A DNA stretch of 51,848 nt from Muribaculaceae bacterium. GTDB lineage: Bacteria > Bacteroidota > Bacteroidia > Bacteroidales > Muribaculaceae. This document shows, piece after piece, positions 5,244 through 38,585 of the stretch (its first letter is position 1; every line of letters begins with the position of its first letter). The position numbers and the translations under genes were made by a program. The stretch spans positions 1-51,848 of the forward strand of contig JAFQSX010000007.1 in assembly GCA_017409345.1 (NCBI GenBank), given 5' to 3'. The notes under the pieces were generated by a model. It made no database searches, was not told the origin of the DNA, and saw nothing but the letters and a program-made list of their open reading frames with translations.

Positions 5244-8200
5244 ATGAAAATTACAAAATTGAATTTTAAACATTTACTTTTGCTTTTGTGCTCATTCGCA
5301 TTTGCGACAAATGCATCGGCACAAACGTTTCATGTTGGAGGAGTAGAGTGGCAGCATAATTCGGATAGTTATGCTGCTAATGGTATCTATTTACAATCAG
5401 CTGTAACTGATGGCGCAATATTTACATTGCCGGCTCCTGCTACTATTGACGATATGCACCCCGATTTGCAATATTGTACAAAAGGGTATAAGATTTATAA
5501 ATCAGGAGCGACATCAAGTGCTGTTACCTTAGAGACGTTTTCGGGTGGAAATATGCCGGCGATATATCCTGTGACTCGTAATAATTCTTCGGGAGATTAT
5601 TTTTATATGGGACCGGCTATTGCATCGGATGATGCAGGAACACTTTGGACTCACACTATGCGAGGCGATAACCCTACTACAACTCTTGATTGGGAAGTTG
5701 GTATTCACACTTTTTGTTATTATACCGAACGTCCGGGACTTGGAGTCCCTGGGACAAAGAAAACAATTAATTTGGATCCACTAGAGAAATGGATGGTAAA
5801 CAAAGCATACCTAATTAGTGCTAATGGTGATGGCGTAAATGGTACCGGCTATATTTGGATTGCTGCTGCCTCAACTAAAATTGCTCGATATACAATTGAA
5901 AAAGGCGTTTTCGTTGCAAAAGAACTTTTCTCCACTCCATTGTCTGGTGGAGATAGCCCTGCTAGTAATTATTGTTATGTGAAACAATATGGGAATAATG
6001 TATATTATACAACATCGGCATACAATGGGTCATCAATGATTGCTCAAGCAATTTATCGTGGAGAATTGAGTGCTGATGGAAAATCAATTACATGGGAATC
6101 TACACCGGTTGTAACTGACAACTATAGTCCACAATTTGCTGTGTTTACGTTAAGCGGACACGATTTCTTGGTTTATAATAGTTATGACGATACTTATGAT
6201 TATAACCCTTATAGAGAAATAACCGTATATGATTTGACCACTAAAACAAAAATATTATCGGCTAGTGGTGGCGAATTATTGACAATTTATAATAAGTCAC
6301 ATAATAATTATATTCGTCAAAGTTTGAACGCAGAGGTTATTGATGAATACACCGCCTATATCTATGGTTTTGTTCCTGGTGGGGGATCATATCGTTATCC
6401 AGTAATTGCAACACCTGATAGAAATCCAGTAACAAATATTTCGGTAGAATGTGAAGGTAATTATAGTTATCTAGGTCGTCAAGATGCAAAGATTTCATGG
6501 GATGCTCCTGCGTCGGCTCAAAGTTATATTGTATATTATCAATCTTCATATACTAATGGTGCTGGAACAAAAGTTACTAGCGATTGGATTAAGGTGGGAG
6601 AAACAACTGAGACTTCAATCACTCATGATGATGTTTGCTGGGCTACAGTGCTAGAAGATGATGACCGAAAATACTATGAACGTTCTTATACTTATAAGGT
6701 AATTCCTGTTTATGAATCGGGTGCGTTAGGTACTGAAGCGATATCATCGGCATTAACACCTGAATTTATCCCATGTACTCCTATGTGGGTTGATGCAAAT
6801 CCAGTACAAGACAATGAAGGATATTGTATTGTACAATTATTGTGGAAAGAATGGCATGGTTATGGCTGTCAACCTCACCATTATAATGTGATACGCGATG
6901 ATGAAGCGATAAATTATCGAAATGGAGAAATCCTTGAGATTGGTGGTTCTAACTATGTAGATACTACATGCGTGTCGGGTGCAACATATCGATATCATAT
7001 TGAGGCTGTTTACCCTAATGTAACAGTTGATGCTCAATATTCCAATTATTTTGAAAATGAAGATAAAGATGTGACAATAGCCACACGCGACTGGGCAAAA
7101 CCTCGATATAGTATCTCAAAAGTATATGAATATAAAATCGTGGGTAAAGATTATGAATCTGAAGAATATGAAGGATATGATGGGGTAGTAAAACCTGATG
7201 CTATTGAGTATCCTAACTTCTATAGTGAGCCCGACTGTTATCGTCAAGGGGTGTTCTATAATGGTTGCTGGTATATTGCTCAATATACTAATGATAATAC
7301 TGCTGATAAATTTCAACATAATCCGCAATCAACATCAACAACTTTGAAAGGTGGCATTTTGCGCTTCTTAGGAGAAGACCCACGTAAAGAAATTCCAGAT
7401 GATAAGGTAAATTATCCTTCGGCCTATCCTCAAGAAAATAATGTTGTAGTTGATAACCCAATTGAACGTCGTCCACTTGTAAGTTATCACCGCGAAAATC
7501 AATGTATTGCTGTAGATGAGAGTGGAACATTCTTGACTCGAGGTTTGAGAACAGGATGGAGTTGGAATGAGAACTCATGGGAGGATAATAACAACTATGC
7601 TCTTGCTTGTTCTTCAGTTGAGTTCCATAATTTTGACAAAAATTGGCATGGTTCATTTGACTTGCCAGCATCTCTTGTTGCTGAATTAGAAGCGTCGGCG
7701 GTAGCAGAGTCGATGCGTGCTGATGACCCTACATTGCCAGGCCGTGTAGATTATTTCTCGGCTCAAGGTGATTTATATAATGATGATTGGTGCTATCTCT
7801 ATATGGCTCCAATGGTGTCAAAAACAGTGTTCCGTGTAAAACTTGTTAAATCGGGAAATACAGTATATGTGCCTGAAGGAAATTGGATTAAATTTACCGA
7901 AGATAAAAATGCTGAGTTTGATTATGCTGATGAAAACTATGCATTCCCTGTAAATTGCGAAAATCGAGAAGGAGAACAGTTTGTCTATGAACAATTAACA
8001 AATGTTTATTCGTTATATTCTGGAACAAATACAGATCCAAGCCAAAAAGGTAAAAATATTTACGAAACAAGTACATTTGTAAATACAATAGGTGGTACTA
8101 CCTTTGAGTTTAATAATGAATTATTCTTAGTGGCTCCTCAAGGTCAATATCCAGGTAACACAGGTTCGTTCCTAGTGGGTATGGCAAACCGTTTTGAAAA

Positions 8201-9884
8201 AGATGAGAACAATAAATGGGTGAATGTTGGTGCAGCAAATGCTGATATGACCAATATTATTCCTACTGCTCAATGGTACACCGGTAAAGCAAATACCGAT
8301 GCAACCGAAACAAATGGTCTTTGGATTTATGGAGAACAAGCAAAAGATGCGGATGGTAATATAATAGATGAAAATAAGGATGGTATGACCGACTATGCTT
8401 ATATCTATACCTATCGTCCTGGTTTGATGTTCGGTAAGTATATCTTAACCCCTAATACATTCTTCCCACCATCACAAGTGTATTTGTCAATTTATCCACA
8501 ATATGAAACAAATGATGGCGGAACAAATATTGACTTGAAGCAATATGATGCCTCGGCATCATGGAGTGAAGTAGAAAACTATGCCACTTCAGGAGGTAAT
8601 TTCTATCAAATTCAAGGATATACACTGACAATCTATGACGTAGAAGAAAAAGAAAATGGCAGTACAGATGGAAATGATGGAAAAGTTGGAGAAATCACTT
8701 TTGACCTGACCGGCGATAATGCCGTGAAATTAAATGCTGATGGAACAGTATCAGATGCTTCGGGTAATATTATTAATGGTTTGACATATACTACTTATAC
8801 AGTTACAGAAAATGGTCAACCAAAGGATTACCATACATTTAAATATGTGGTTGAAGATGTTGATGCTATTGATGATAATGGTAATAAACGCGATTTTATT
8901 GCATACGTTACAGTGAATTATGAAGGAAATCCCGAAGAATCCACAGCAAACAAAACGTTTGATAGCGCTCAAACCGAATATGTAGCAGCTAATACGTATG
9001 TTCCCACTCCTCCAGCGGCAACTACACGTCTTTATAAACATTCTACTGTGATGAAATATGACTCAAATAGAGATGGAAAAATCAATGATGAATTTAAAGA
9101 TGGTGTGAGAGATTCATCTTATCAATGGTATTATGTTTATATGGATATAACTGCACCTGTAGCAGATGAGCCTGTTACAAATTATACTATTTCAATTGAT
9201 ACAGACCTCAAAAATGGTGCAGATAGAGATGTGACTAGTTTCTATTTATATGACCCACTTGTTAACGGAACAAACTCAACCGGACTAACTCCGGATGAGG
9301 ATGGATATGTGCTTGTAAAGGCTGAAGTTGATCAAGATGGAAATATTATCAAGCCGGCAACAATCCCCGGTACTTATGACTTCGAGGCTGCAAAGGCTGC
9401 GCTTGAAGGTACATATGATACCGACTTGAATGGTAATACGTTTGAAAAAGCAATTGTGAAATGGGTATTCAAAGATAATGTGGATAATCCTGATGCCGAT
9501 GGCGATAATGTTGCTGTAGAGGGCGAAGGAGCGAATGCTACTGTTAAATGGAACTTTATTGTTAATGCAAATTATGCTGCCAATAATCCAAAGATTAGCA
9601 ATTCGACAAGTGGAGGTGAAACAAAATATTATGGAACAATGACAAGTGTTGAGTCTACCTTGTTTGATACAGAAATTTTGGTTTATCCAAATCCCGCTGA
9701 CACATATATTATTGTTCAATCAACAAATGAAATTGGTCAATTGTTGATAGTGTCGGCCGATGGTATTGTGATGAGATCTCAATATATTCAAGAGACCAAA
9801 GCGACTATCGATGTTGAAGACCTCTCGGCCGGTATATACGTTTTGAAAGCAAACGGTATCGTAAAAATGATTGTAAAAAAATAA
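5244..9884 (+). CDS. Large T9SS-secreted surface protein with fibronectin type III-like region
   Basis: 1546 residues with signal peptide MKITKLNFKHLLLLLCSFAFATNASA. Residues of about 390-560 look like one or two fibronectin type III folds (KISWDAPASAQSYIVYY, YKVIPVYESGALG). Two Asp-rich loops resemble EF-hand or dockerin-type Ca2+ sites (DENKDGMTDY and DSNRDGKINDEFKDG). The C-terminal 70 residues (ILVYPNPADTYIIV, LSAGIYVLKANG, KMIVKK) are a clear type A T9SS sorting domain, so it is probably exported through the T9SS and anchored at the surface. No catalytic domain is recognised, and its ligand is unknown. It is monocistronic with a strong terminator. The 25-bp tandem repeat sits in its leader. 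Confidence 0.85.
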   Translation: MKITKLNFKHLLLLLCSFAFATNASAQTFHVGGVEWQHNSDSYAANGIYLQSAVTDGAIFTLPAPATIDDMHPDLQYCTKGYKIYKSGATSSAVTLETFSGGNMPAIYPVTRNNSSGDYFYMGPAIASDDAGTLWTHTMRGDNPTTTLDWEVGIHTFCYYTERPGLGVPGTKKTINLDPLEKWMVNKAYLISANGDGVNGTGYIWIAAASTKIARYTIEKGVFVAKELFSTPLSGGDSPASNYCYVKQYGNNVYYTTSAYNGSSMIAQAIYRGELSADGKSITWESTPVVTDNYSPQFAVFTLSGHDFLVYNSYDDTYDYNPYREITVYDLTTKTKILSASGGELLTIYNKSHNNYIRQSLNAEVIDEYTAYIYGFVPGGGSYRYPVIATPDRNPVTNISVECEGNYSYLGRQDAKISWDAPASAQSYIVYYQSSYTNGAGTKVTSDWIKVGETTETSITHDDVCWATVLEDDDRKYYERSYTYKVIPVYESGALGTEAISSALTPEFIPCTPMWVDANPVQDNEGYCIVQLLWKEWHGYGCQPHHYNVIRDDEAINYRNGEILEIGGSNYVDTTCVSGATYRYHIEAVYPNVTVDAQYSNYFENEDKDVTIATRDWAKPRYSISKVYEYKIVGKDYESEEYEGYDGVVKPDAIEYPNFYSEPDCYRQGVFYNGCWYIAQYTNDNTADKFQHNPQSTSTTLKGGILRFLGEDPRKEIPDDKVNYPSAYPQENNVVVDNPIERRPLVSYHRENQCIAVDESGTFLTRGLRTGWSWNENSWEDNNNYALACSSVEFHNFDKNWHGSFDLPASLVAELEASAVAESMRADDPTLPGRVDYFSAQGDLYNDDWCYLYMAPMVSKTVFRVKLVKSGNTVYVPEGNWIKFTEDKNAEFDYADENYAFPVNCENREGEQFVYEQLTNVYSLYSGTNTDPSQKGKNIYETSTFVNTIGGTTFEFNNELFLVAPQGQYPGNTGSFLVGMANRFEKDENNKWVNVGAANADMTNIIPTAQWYTGKANTDATETNGLWIYGEQAKDADGNIIDENKDGMTDYAYIYTYRPGLMFGKYILTPNTFFPPSQVYLSIYPQYETNDGGTNIDLKQYDASASWSEVENYATSGGNFYQIQGYTLTIYDVEEKENGSTDGNDGKVGEITFDLTGDNAVKLNADGTVSDASGNIINGLTYTTYTVTENGQPKDYHTFKYVVEDVDAIDDNGNKRDFIAYVTVNYEGNPEESTANKTFDSAQTEYVAANTYVPTPPAATTRLYKHSTVMKYDSNRDGKINDEFKDGVRDSSYQWYYVYMDITAPVADEPVTNYTISIDTDLKNGADRDVTSFYLYDPLVNGTNSTGLTPDEDGYVLVKAEVDQDGNIIKPATIPGTYDFEAAKAALEGTYDTDLNGNTFEKAIVKWVFKDNVDNPDADGDNVAVEGEGANATVKWNFIVNANYAANNPKISNSTSGGETKYYGTMTSVESTLFDTEILVYPNPADTYIIVQSTNEIGQLLIVSADGIVMRSQYIQETKATIDVEDLSAGIYVLKANGIVKMIVKK

Positions 9885-14372: not shown

Positions 14373-14403
14373 AAAAAAGAGTATCATAATGATACTCTTT
14401 TTT
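14373..14403 (-). terminator. Symmetrical terminator after the tRNA-Arg pair
   Basis: AAAAAAGAGTATCAT and ATGATACTCTTTTTT form a 15-bp palindrome around one base, with a T-run in both directions. It ends three bases from the 3' end of the first tRNA-Arg on the minus strand. Confidence 0.8.
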
Positions 14404-14406
14404 GAG

Positions 14407-14480
14407 TGACTCCGACAGGATTCAAACCTGTAACCTTCTGATCCGTAGTCAGATGCTCTATTCAGTTGAGCTACGGAGCC
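14407..14480 (-). tRNA. tRNA-Arg (ACG), distal copy
   Basis: 74-nt cloverleaf on the minus strand: acceptor GGCTCCG/CGGAGTC, D stem GCTC/GAGC, anticodon stem TCTGA/TCAGA with loop CTACGGA (anticodon ACG, normally read as ICG), T stem ACAGG/CCTGT. CCA is not encoded. Identical to the copy 99 bp away. Confidence 0.95.
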
Positions 14481-14505
14481 ATTTGATTGGCTTATTTTAT
14501 TTTGG

Positions 14506-14579
14506 TGACTCCGACAGGATTCAAACCTGTAACCTTCTGATCCGTAGTCAGATGCTCTATTCAGTTGAGCTACGGAGCC
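14506..14579 (-). tRNA. tRNA-Arg (ACG), promoter-proximal copy
   Basis: Identical in sequence and structure to 14407-14480. Both are served by the promoter at 14602-14632, so a tandem duplication within one transcript is the simplest explanation. Confidence 0.95.
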
Positions 14580-14601
14580 ATTCCGTTTGCGTTTGCGAGT
14601 G

Positions 14602-14632
14602 CAAAGTTACAATAAAAATTTTTATTAACAAA
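14602..14632 (-). promoter_or_regulatory. Promoter of the tRNA-Arg pair
   Basis: The minus strand reads TTTG (14629-14632), 19 bp, TAACTTTG (14602-14609): an exact consensus promoter. Confidence 0.8.
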
Positions 14633-35803: not shown

Positions 35804-38014
35804 ATGAAAAAGCTTAAGTTGTATTTAGTGAATCTATTGGCTGTGATGTTTCTGGCGTTTGCGGTCTCATGTGAAGATGAGAAGAACAAGCCTGGTGACG
35901 ACCCCGATACACCGTCGCCGGAGGAATTGCAGGAGATAATCAGTCCGCAGTATGTTTCGGTTGATTGGAACACTGCCGACGTGTTGATGTGCGACACCAT
36001 CACCGGCAAATACGTCATGACTAAAACCGCCGAGACCTCGCAGATTGCCCCAGGGTCGGTAGTGGTGCTTGATATGGACACCACCGGTATCGTTATTCGA
36101 GTTACCGAGGTTGTTGACAATACCAACGAGGTTAACGTCAAAGCCGAGCGAGGCACAATAGCCGACATTTTCGCCAACATAGATTTCACGCTCTCAACCT
36201 CTACCGAGGCTGAATCACGTAGCAAAAACGTGTTCTACCCCGAGAAAATCATCTGTCGCGACAGTACCGGCCGGATCCTGTCGCGCACATCATTCAGCAA
36301 GCCGATATGGGAATGGGGTAAGAATTTCGACGGCACAACCCTTTTCCAAAACTCAGCTGTGCACCTCTACTTCCGTGAGGCCAACATGAGCGCGTCGGTG
36401 GGACTGAATATGTATTTCAACTTCGGTCAACGCACCATTATAGAGACCGCCTATGAGGTGTGGGATAAATACCGCGCGCAGATGCTTGAGGTGGAAGCCA
36501 CATTGGACGGCGAATGGAACGCCAACTTCATTCTGCAAGCCGACGTGTCGGGCAGTTACACCTTCGACAAAGGAGAGGATTTGGTAAAACACAACCTTCT
36601 CCCTCCCAAATCAATAAAATTCGTAGTCTATGGCGTGCCTGTGTGGATCAACCTCAGTGCCGACCTTTTCCGTCATGTCAAGCTCACTTGCGAAGGTGAG
36701 GCTTCAGCTTACACCGGCGTGCGCAATAACATCACCGGCAAATTCGGATTCAACTGGCAGCAGCAAAGCGGAATGTCGAAAGTGAGCGGATTGGGTTGCG
36801 ACACCGAAATCATTTATCCCACCATCACCGGCAAAGGCCGTGTCGATGCCAAAGCATGGCTTTATCCTCGGTTGCGCATGACATTGTACGGGCTTGTCGG
36901 TCCCTCATTCGACATCAAACCCTATGTGGGCACCGAAGCGCGCGGCGGTTTCAAGCAAACCATGCTCGGCTCCTCATCTGACTATTTCGCATGGAGCTTG
37001 CGCAACTATTGCGGAGTTGACATCAATGCCGGACTGAGCCTTATGTTCATGAACTACGAGACCAAGCGTTACGCCTTGGGCGACATAAACGTTATAGAGA
37101 AAGACCTGTACAAATCACCCCATAGCATCGAGTTGGGTTCAGCCCCCGACAAAGTGAAAGTGGGCGAGGCCGCCACCATCTCATTCGTGGTCAAAGATTA
37201 TGATTATATCTTCGGCAAAACCATCGCCACCCCATTGCCCCAGGTCGTGAGGTTTGAGTCGAATGGCGGTTTGTCATCACAATATGGCATAACAAGCAAC
37301 GGCATGACAAGTGTGACATGGTCACCCAAGTCAAAGTCCGACAAATTATATGCGACATTATATAATTATGACGGGAGTATCATAAGTCGAGCGGAATACG
37401 CATCAGTAGAAGATAAAGAACCCGAAGATGAAATCACCCCCGGTCAGGAGGTTGACTTGGGATTATCAGTCAACTGGGGCGGTTGGAATGTCGGAGCGTC
37501 ATCACCCGAACAGTACGGCGGCTATTACGCCTGGGGTGAAACCGAGGAGAAAAACGATTACACATGGATGACATATAAATATTGGGTTGACAGAAATGGA
37601 GATGGCTATGTGGATTACAATGACAATGAAATAACCAATATAGGCACAAATATCAGTGGCACTCAATATGATGTGGCTCGTCAAAAATGGGGCGGTTCAT
37701 GGAGAATGCCCACAAAGGCAGAGATAGACGAACTTACCTCAATGTGTACTTGGACATGGTATCAATATAAGGGTGTTTGGGGACAAAAAGTTACCGGACC
37801 CAATGGTAATAGCATTTTCATGCCGGCTGCGGGCTTCCGCAGCGGTACTTCGCTCTACGACGATGGTAGCTACGGCTACTACAGGAGTGCTACGCTGGAC
37901 GAGGGCAGCTACGGCGGCGACAACGCATGGCACCTCTACTTCAGCAATGGCTCCTACGGCAGCGGCGGCAGCTACGATCGCAACGGCGGGCTCACGGTTC
38001 GCCCTGTAAAATAA
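35804..38014 (+). CDS. Surface lipoprotein with FISUMP/C-type-lectin-like end; candidate DGR target
   Basis: 736 residues with a lipoprotein signal (AFAVSCED, Cys23) and an acidic, Pro-rich linker, so probably surface exposed. Residues of about 45-540 are beta-rich and unrecognised. From about 545 comes a FISUMP/DUF1566-like domain related to the formylglycine-generating-enzyme and C-type lectin fold: VDLGLSVNWGGWNVGA, YYAWGETE, GGSWRMPTKAEIDEL, FMPAAGFRSG, GYYRSATL, AWHLYF, LTVRPVK. In the last 40 residues runs of Gly, Ser, Tyr, Asp, Asn, His and Arg are encoded almost only by NNC codons, as expected of an adenine-mutagenised variable region of a diversity-generating retroelement. Most of the gene is visibly G+C richer than its neighbours, which suggests transfer. 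Confidence 0.8.
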   Translation: MKKLKLYLVNLLAVMFLAFAVSCEDEKNKPGDDPDTPSPEELQEIISPQYVSVDWNTADVLMCDTITGKYVMTKTAETSQIAPGSVVVLDMDTTGIVIRVTEVVDNTNEVNVKAERGTIADIFANIDFTLSTSTEAESRSKNVFYPEKIICRDSTGRILSRTSFSKPIWEWGKNFDGTTLFQNSAVHLYFREANMSASVGLNMYFNFGQRTIIETAYEVWDKYRAQMLEVEATLDGEWNANFILQADVSGSYTFDKGEDLVKHNLLPPKSIKFVVYGVPVWINLSADLFRHVKLTCEGEASAYTGVRNNITGKFGFNWQQQSGMSKVSGLGCDTEIIYPTITGKGRVDAKAWLYPRLRMTLYGLVGPSFDIKPYVGTEARGGFKQTMLGSSSDYFAWSLRNYCGVDINAGLSLMFMNYETKRYALGDINVIEKDLYKSPHSIELGSAPDKVKVGEAATISFVVKDYDYIFGKTIATPLPQVVRFESNGGLSSQYGITSNGMTSVTWSPKSKSDKLYATLYNYDGSIISRAEYASVEDKEPEDEITPGQEVDLGLSVNWGGWNVGASSPEQYGGYYAWGETEEKNDYTWMTYKYWVDRNGDGYVDYNDNEITNIGTNISGTQYDVARQKWGGSWRMPTKAEIDELTSMCTWTWYQYKGVWGQKVTGPNGNSIFMPAAGFRSGTSLYDDGSYGYYRSATLDEGSYGGDNAWHLYFSNGSYGSGGSYDRNGGLTVRPVK
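37898..38011 (+). other. Putative DGR variable region
   Basis: In codons 37943-37987 all fifteen end in C or T (13 in C) and all encode residues reachable by changing A in AAY: AGC, AAT, GGC, TCC, TAC, CGC, GAT, AAC and so on. A second cluster is 37904-37924. Between and after them lie the invariant blocks GCATGG and the VRPVK end. No template repeat or reverse transcriptase was seen in the window. Confidence 0.5.
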
Positions 38015-38049
38015 GTGCAGCGTTTTAAATTTTTTAATTTTAAAAAAAA

Positions 38050-38072
38050 GTCGCCCGCTTAAGGCGGGCGAC
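38050..38072. repeat. GC-rich hairpin after the putative variable region
   Basis: A perfect 9-bp stem GTCGCCCGC/GCGGGCGAC with a TTAAG loop, 36 bp after the stop codon. Some DGR targets carry such a hairpin or cruciform just behind the variable region. It lacks a T-run on the plus strand but has one on the minus strand. Confidence 0.7.
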
Positions 38073-38086
38073 CGAAATCATAAAAA

Positions 38087-38152
38087 ATGCCAACCATACG
38101 TCAAATAATAGAAAAGGAACGTCAAAAAAATCAATTAATAAAACCTGACTAA
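38087..38152 (+). CDS. Possible 21-residue peptide
   Basis: ATG to TAA encodes MPTIRQIIEKERQKNQLIKPD, charged and helical in character. There is no signal peptide, recognised family or clear translation signal. It lies between a hairpin and a terminator, so it could be the last cistron of the 35804 transcript, or chance. Confidence 0.2.
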   Translation: MPTIRQIIEKERQKNQLIKPD

Positions 38153-38159
38153 ATATGAG

Positions 38160-38202
38160 GGTGCGTCAAAATTCAAAAATTTGACACACCTTCTTCTTTT
38201 GT
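38160..38202 (+). terminator. Terminator of the 35804 transcript
   Basis: An 11-bp stem GGTGCGTCAAA/TTTGACACACC with one G-T pair, then TTCTTCTTTTG. Its core GTCAAAATTCAAAA also occurs in the terminator at 426-460. Confidence 0.7.
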
Positions 38203-38356
38203 TTAATCATCTTCTTAAAATGAATTTGTGTTTCAACCCCCTCCCGGCTACGCCGTACTCCCCCTAATTGTCTTGCAATCAGAGGGAGAGCTAATAATGC
38301 TTAAGTCAATAATCTTGGTAGCTCCTCCTCTGAAAATTTGATTTTTTTTAGGGAAC

Positions 38357-38416
38357 CTCGCAGAGCTCACGAGTGAGCGAGCAGTGCATGTCGGCTTGCC
38401 GGTGCACGATTGCGAG
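38357..38416. other. Potential three-way-junction RNA or DNA element
   Basis: P1 CTCGCA/TGCGAG (38357-38362, 38411-38416) encloses two hairpins: GCTCA-CGAG-TGAGC (38365-38378) and GTGCA...CGGC-TT-GCCG...TGCAC (38384-38407). The surrounding 38235-38460 is G+C richer than usual and non-coding. Its function is unknown. Confidence 0.4.
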
Positions 38417-38528
38417 ACTCACCGTAACGTGGCACGTAGTGACGGAGGGGTTAATTTTGATACAATTATGATAGACTCTACAATTTTGACAACCCTCTCC
38501 TACTATTGCTCAATTATCAATTTTTTTG

Positions 38529-38536
38529 TAAATTTG
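38529..38536 (+). promoter_or_regulatory. -7 box of alaS
   Basis: TAAATTTG, 50 bp before the ATG, with ATTG at 38505-38508 as a possible -33 element (20 bp). Confidence 0.55.
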
Positions 38537-38585
38537 CAGTTTGTAAAGAAAATAATTAAATAACAAATATAAAAATACAATTAAA

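Follow-up and report, generated by a model that had tools for sequence, protein, structure and literature searches.

DGR targets that stand apart from the machinery rewriting them are already known from Treponema denticola and from Thiohalocapsa PB-PSB1. Isolates of T. denticola keep target genes without reverse transcriptase (RT) or template, which the authors, in the portion of the paper available, regard as remnants of lost core components (PMC4891356). In PB-PSB1, degenerate and remote DGR loci are shaped by MITE-like repeats, and some are best explained by diversification in trans, according to the accessible sections of that study (PMC10907252). RT-first DGR surveys miss stand-alone targets of this kind, and the available text of a large survey states that remote targets would go undetected (PMC8144416). 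Starting from the target, orphans that retain a stub of an accessory gene offer a way to trace DGR activity that has been lost or is remote, and make it possible to study for how much time a diversified surface protein persists once its mutator is gone.

Here we analyze a 51,848-nucleotide stretch of a contig of a Muribaculaceae bacterium (GCA_017409345.1, JAFQSX010000007.1; hereafter the window), in which one gene ends in an NNC-rich segment followed by a hairpin. Our best explanation as a whole, held at a probability of roughly 0.78, is that this gene originated as a DGR target, that the cassette is missing at the locus and that the target is orphaned there. Like loci in PB-PSB1, it is incomplete and carries repeats where components have degraded; only PB-PSB1 has intact DGRs in the same circular genome and diversification measured in populations, as far as the consulted part of that source goes (PMC10907252). 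T. denticola differs in phylum and target protein, and a likely accessory stub remains in the window locus. What the present case would add, judged from sequence, is this recognizable stub together with a genus in which five genomes hold the target and none yielded a DGR RT. Literature searches joining DGR with FISUMP or with MutS-like found nothing, and those joining DGR with Muribaculaceae found, in the text available, nothing beyond a review holding each term once.

Target gene and terminal domain

The target gene (35804..38014, plus strand; open reading frame list and translation) encodes 736 aa in an intact frame. Its neighbors are an NAD-dependent DNA ligase gene upstream and an alanyl-tRNA synthetase gene downstream. 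The sequence-only reading had seen no RT in the window, and this holds: the sole RVT_1 match of the genome lies on another contig. Read by eye, the N-terminus is a signal containing AFAVSC, which resembles a lipobox, and then acidic residues (CEDEK), making a surface lipoprotein plausible on this basis; surface exposure and ligand binding are what we infer for the protein.

The last domain, described earlier as FISUMP/C-type-lectin-like, is indeed of Lcl_C/FISUMP type by weak profile matches. It matches Lcl_C (PF07603) with E 1.1e-5 and 26.2 bits, under the curated cut-off of 34.9; we take this family to be the former DUF1566. In alignment A1, comprising the window and 58 of 60 domain sequences chosen from 80 related loci (two were left out for frame or stops), Lcl_C matches 53 of 59 sequences and the NCBIfam FISUMP model 16 of 59, the window sequence not among the latter (E 0.01 for both). 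A profile of the domain searched against PDB sequences returned no match; a C-type-lectin fold of the variable domain is putative. Three more FISUMP-like domains of the same genome (G000), at L011 2723-3859 and L012 1783-2301, are AT-rich and show no NNC pattern. By this sign they are not DGR targets, a classification drawn from codon content, and the domain is thus not inherently a DGR target.

Variable region

The variable region (VR; 37840..37996, plus strand) is NNC-rich, with limits that we set from the alignment. The constant gene end that follows, VRPVK (37997..38011, plus strand), has 0 differences from the orthologue in 5 codons; its position is presumably IMH-like, a role inferred from knowledge of DGRs. 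The earlier count of fifteen NNY codons among the fifteen at 37943-37987 is exact. The best 40-codon stretch of the target gene contains 30 C-ending codons, compared with a mean of 7.4 over all 13,873 such stretches in 29 ORFs (chosen by us from 57 ORFs), and the other 28 ORFs reach at most 22 per stretch.

A syntenic locus from a goat-cecum MAG of the same genus (L014 in G004), whose long aligned pieces are 85-93% identical in DNA, supplied the orthologue for comparison. The gene body (35804-37180) differs at 37 of 1377 bases (~97% identity), with 24 synonymous and 10 nonsynonymous codons among 459 and with 4, 4 and 29 differences at codon positions 1, 2 and 3. The corresponding counts are 19, 13 and 41 in the linker (91 codons), 10, 10 and 38 in the domain upstream of the VR (123 codons), and 17, 13 and 6 in the VR itself (52 codons), a shift in codon position with a Fisher p of 5e-6, or 1.9e-6 with a second set of limits. 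The gene thus carries, near its 3′ end, variation at positions 1 and 2 of NNY/NNC codons. The same shift appears among four copies in G003, where first/second- versus third-position differences are 191:24 in the VR and 139:169 upstream (pairs not independent). It is weaker among three copies in G001 (102:57 versus 91:123, p 4e-5), the third of which, L109, is not NNC-rich. Third positions of the VR also differ from the orthologue less than those of the adjacent domain (6/52 versus 38/123 codons, p 0.007), which fits rewriting from conserved templates after the domains parted.

The linker and Lcl_C/FISUMP-type domain ahead of the VR (37181..37839, plus strand) are unusually diverged between orthologues, mostly at third positions. 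Ahead of the VR the DNA of the domain is 84% identical, compared with ~97% in the gene body, with a sharp fall at ~37181, and the upstream domains of the window and L014 are mutually closest among eleven compared. This pattern points to a faster or separate history of the C-terminal domain through recombination or selection. Part of the difference between the orthologues would therefore reflect recombination or fast domain evolution, and some VR difference may predate the species split. The VR has Arg where 54 of the 59 A1 sequences have Trp, the window being one of five that deviate. Adenine mutagenesis of TGG would not give Arg, since this is a T-to-A type of change; the residue counts against the DGR reading, as does the divergence of the whole C-terminal domain, and may be a first sign of VR decay.

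Hairpin

A perfect hairpin with a 9-bp stem (GTCGCCCGC/GCGGGCGAC) and a 5-nt loop lies 35 nt past the stop (38050..38072, plus strand), after the VR as in DGR targets. The GC-rich hairpin flagged by the sequence-only reading is therefore real: folded as DNA it reaches -13.3 kcal/mol (z -4.55), a value that none of 200 shuffles equalled. Its minus strand has the look of a terminator as well. Its GC-rich 9-bp stem soon after the VR resembles the BPP-1 hairpin/cruciform, so far as the available part of that paper describes it, and any comparable function here would be putative (PMC3240598). According to the same partial source, phage DGR hairpins have a 4-nt GRNA loop and lie 4-34 bp from the VR; the window loop, unlike these, is TTAAG (PMC3240598). 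The position matches that in an intact cassette of the same family, L151, where, by eye, one stem pair reads A-T in place of G-C.

Intact cassettes in relatives

A template-tolerant scan of 80 related-domain loci returned one locus, L069, that also contains a template lacking non-A mismatches. It comprises the target, an accessory gene, the template and a 395-aa RT with LPIGNLTSQ; over 202 bp, template and VR differ at 24 A and at 4 other bases, the 4 lying past the gene's stop. The L069 accessory gene matched none of the family profiles searched. L151, in genome G076, contains in order the target, hairpin, accessory gene, Avd-like gene, template and an RT 56% identical to that of L069, and all 25 of its 25 template/VR mismatches over 180 bp fall at template A. 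Its Avd-like gene matches NF033474 (E 7.5e-8) and bAvd (E 1.3e-7), and its accessory gene matches MutS_I (E 0.006), all below cut-off. A MutS-like DGR accessory gene is known as MSL. Compared with the L151 template, a distant proxy aligned with gaps placed by hand, the window VR has position-1 and -2 mismatches at 26 of 51 A and 14 of 65 other bases.

These Bacteroidales Lcl_C-type cassettes, L151 with its Avd-like gene and L069, are alike with the window in the target domain, the hairpin between target and accessory gene and the start of the accessory gene. Missing from the window are the remainder of the accessory gene, any Avd-like gene, the template repeat and the RT. Together with the VR signature, the homologous intact cassettes mark the window gene as a bona fide DGR target by origin, which we consider highly probable, and the earlier identification of the segment as a DGR variable region gains strong support from these cassettes and from the codon-position shift.

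Ordinary diversifying selection and recombination acting on an Lcl_C/FISUMP domain with GC-rich codon usage, with no DGR ever involved, would accommodate both the fast divergence upstream of the VR and the three domains in the same genome devoid of the NNC pattern. Such an origin is very unlikely, given that third positions mostly stay C as positions 1 and 2 vary, that the same domain occurs in intact cassettes whose mismatches within the gene are confined to adenines, and that an accessory stub occupies the cassette position.

Two further domain copies in G076 were considered for service in trans by the G076 template and gave no support for it: the match of L219 stops after the first 60 bases (3/47 non-A mismatches) and L220 has no match at the threshold used. 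At L019 (8001-9440), the VR and hairpin are followed by the beginning of the accessory gene, which then passes into the C-terminal portion of an RT, with no template seen; this would be a deleted cassette or an assembly artefact. Phage cassettes on two IMG/VR contigs (L148 and L150) have the order target, accessory gene, template, RT; their RTs are 48-49% identical to that of L069, and the phage target end looks similar.

Across the family, the target domain occurs in 86 of 297 genomes (E 1e-25), not all with a VR, and an RT close to that of L069 in at least 17 of 297 (E 1e-15), a lower bound because the DGR RT of G007, at 1e-13, misses the threshold. Both occur in three genomes (G076, G227 and G252; two tables compared by reading). 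An NNC-rich relative at L221 (3263-3790; G057, of the genus of G076, 92% complete) is not among the 17 RT matches and is likely another orphan target.

Likely accessory stub and flanking repeat

Of a complete DGR cassette, the locus holds the target, the hairpin and a likely accessory stub alone. The stub (38087..38152, plus strand; 21 codons, stop 38150-38152) sits right behind the hairpin, where intact cassettes begin the accessory gene, and opens at its ATG with MPTIRQIIEKERQKNQLIKPD before the stop. Intact accessory genes start with MSTIKERIEREQSN (L151) and MAKLNDILDAEKQR (L069), and the stub is similar over its first ~15 residues to the accessory genes at L019, L069 and L151. When the window's 3331 start-codon peptides were compared with a set of five accessory starts, of which two are truncated as well, the stub came first (98, next 46). 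It also scored highest against the two intact accessory genes jointly (42, next 23) and against that of L069 alone (19, next 17), and ranked second against that of L151 alone (23 versus 24). At the DNA level, the stretch from stop to stub aligned to L151 with a score of 32, compared with a maximum of 20 among 1100 window segments and of 25 among 1000 shuffles. A blastn search of the window with the L151 tail gave just E 0.034 and 0.099, too weak for a call by itself, and unrelated places reached 0.099 as well. The stub is thus likely a truncated start of the accessory gene, with good support from a short match.

L014 matches the stub and the next ~190 bp at 99-100% identity. Ten copies are known in the genus (the window, L014, three in G001, four in G003 and one in G009), and no stub was found behind the eight other than the window and L014 (partly by eye), a point against our explanation. 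A wider scan for accessory starts covered 68 of 81 sequences, with 93 C-terminal copies scored; it excluded copies that were not C-terminal or whose alignment ended before query residue 180. Accessory starts behind the VRs of L047, L051, L019 and L069 scored above all 971 null windows, those of L047 and L051 each being open for 38 codons. The L024 stub reached 11.0, just under the 99.5% null threshold of 11.4, and that of L025 is out of frame and was recognized by eye only.

Dispersed repeat material (38155..38560) begins about where the resemblance to the accessory gene ends. It has at least 35 matches in G000, the query itself included (40 of 60 candidates scored), and matches in at least 11 of 12 genus genomes, G000 counted (40 candidates scored per genome). 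Most matches are partial; among those listed, most start at query base 134 or later and one weak match at 109.

The likely stub behind the hairpin suggests that a cassette once present at the locus has gone, or that the locus derives by copying from a cassette, and of the two we favor loss. Transfer of the VR-hairpin-stub unit out of another cassette, which would have made a new remote target with a different N-terminal region, is unlikely though worth weighing: truncated accessory starts of varied lengths stand behind the VRs of L047, L051, L024 (sub-threshold) and L025 (by eye), and ~97% identity in the gene body drops sharply at ~37181. The RT search of the genus assemblies revealed no intact source cassette of this type, loss in cis gives identical anatomy, and L019 keeps both cassette ends, as an internal deletion would leave. 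A broader version is improbable and offered as speculation, namely that VR, hairpin and accessory start form a portable module in Bacteroidales, copied to new genes and sites, with a small number of mobile DGRs, missed by assembly, acting remotely on many surface proteins. If so, the stub would be a scar, or even a needed part, of the spread.

Under the preferred reading, an orphaned target at this site, the ancestral cassette of the lineage would have begun with the VR-bearing target and the hairpin, continued with a weakly MutS-I-like accessory gene and an Avd-like gene, and closed with the template repeat and RT. The last ~50 codons would stem from mutagenic retrohoming, the source being a template with many AAC codons. 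At this locus, nothing past the first ~15 accessory-gene codons is present, with the dispersed repeat next in line and the target orphaned at the site; the gene has kept its frame and shows signs of purifying selection in the gene body.

Search for template and RT

The sequence-only reading had proposed a trans target of a DGR elsewhere in the genome, to be recognized by a near-identical template repeat and a DGR-type RT. Neither turned up in the assembled 75% of G000 (2.09 Mb, 38 contigs), leaving the proposal unsupported. BLAST with the VR gave no template in this assembly, the best other match being 26 bp at 88%, and a degenerate pattern allowing up to 3 mismatches, run with no positive control, found the VR itself only (control 0). 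Built from the window, that pattern matched 0 of 4 VR copies in G003 and 1 of 3 in G001 and is thus no template test in congeners. BLAST with the VR over 12 genus genomes found VR copies and no recognized template; the missing template counts against our explanation.

DGR RTs were sought with the RVT_1 family and with the L069 RT protein, and none was found in the 75%-complete G000. The sole RVT_1 match there is of UG24 type: a large RT (L001, G000:C27:204381-204944, minus strand; PADLOC RT_UG24, E 2e-258) with the motif QGLPQS, by its sequence a candidate anti-phage defence RT. The 12 genus genomes gave 12 RVT_1 matches in 7 genomes, and the same search recovered the DGR RT of G007 as a positive control. 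The RT motif was read in 9 of the 12; L123, L125 and L126 (G008 and G010, with no VR match there) were left unclassified. In the five VR-bearing genomes (G000, G001, G003, G004 and G009; 63-92% complete), GxxxSQ was present in 0 of 5 RTs, one from G000 and four from G004, with none in G001, G003 or G009. Were each RT missing by chance and independently of the others, five such absences together would have a probability of ~3e-4, by arithmetic from the completeness values. The lineages have either lost the DGR or carry it on elements left out by MAG binning.

Because the genome is only 75% complete, the gene could still be an active trans target of a DGR that is in the cell but outside the assembly, in the missing quarter or on a plasmid, phage or integrative element. 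We hold this as a minority possibility; it overlaps the preferred explanation, which concerns origin and anatomy. The VR retains its frame and NNC pattern, its low third-position divergence relative to the adjacent domain is as expected from conserved templates, and trans targets with observed diversification are described for PB-PSB1 in the part of that report available (PMC10907252). The absence of a DGR RT from all five VR-bearing genus genomes weighs against it, with the caveat that mobile elements are not missed at random, which weakens the ~3e-4 figure. Searches of phage and viral collections found no relative of the target, and no exact 20-base match to the VR end was found in viral contigs. 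In this strain the target has more probably become frozen, or changes solely through recombination among relatives; active rewriting is the less likely state.

Further loci

A different DGR occurs in the genus of the window (L097, G007:C8, minus strand; TR near 7613, VR near 9347), with a 328-aa RT carrying VPIGNLTSQ and 21 A and 0 other template/VR mismatches in 70 bp; its accessory gene looks HRDC-like and its target formylglycine-enzyme-like (both by eye). At L224 (G043:C72), one of three adjoining FISUMP copies has an internal TGA. Positions 14398-14632 of the window have several overlapping 83-97% matches in G003 beside the VR copy L115 and are probably a dispersed or tandem repeat.
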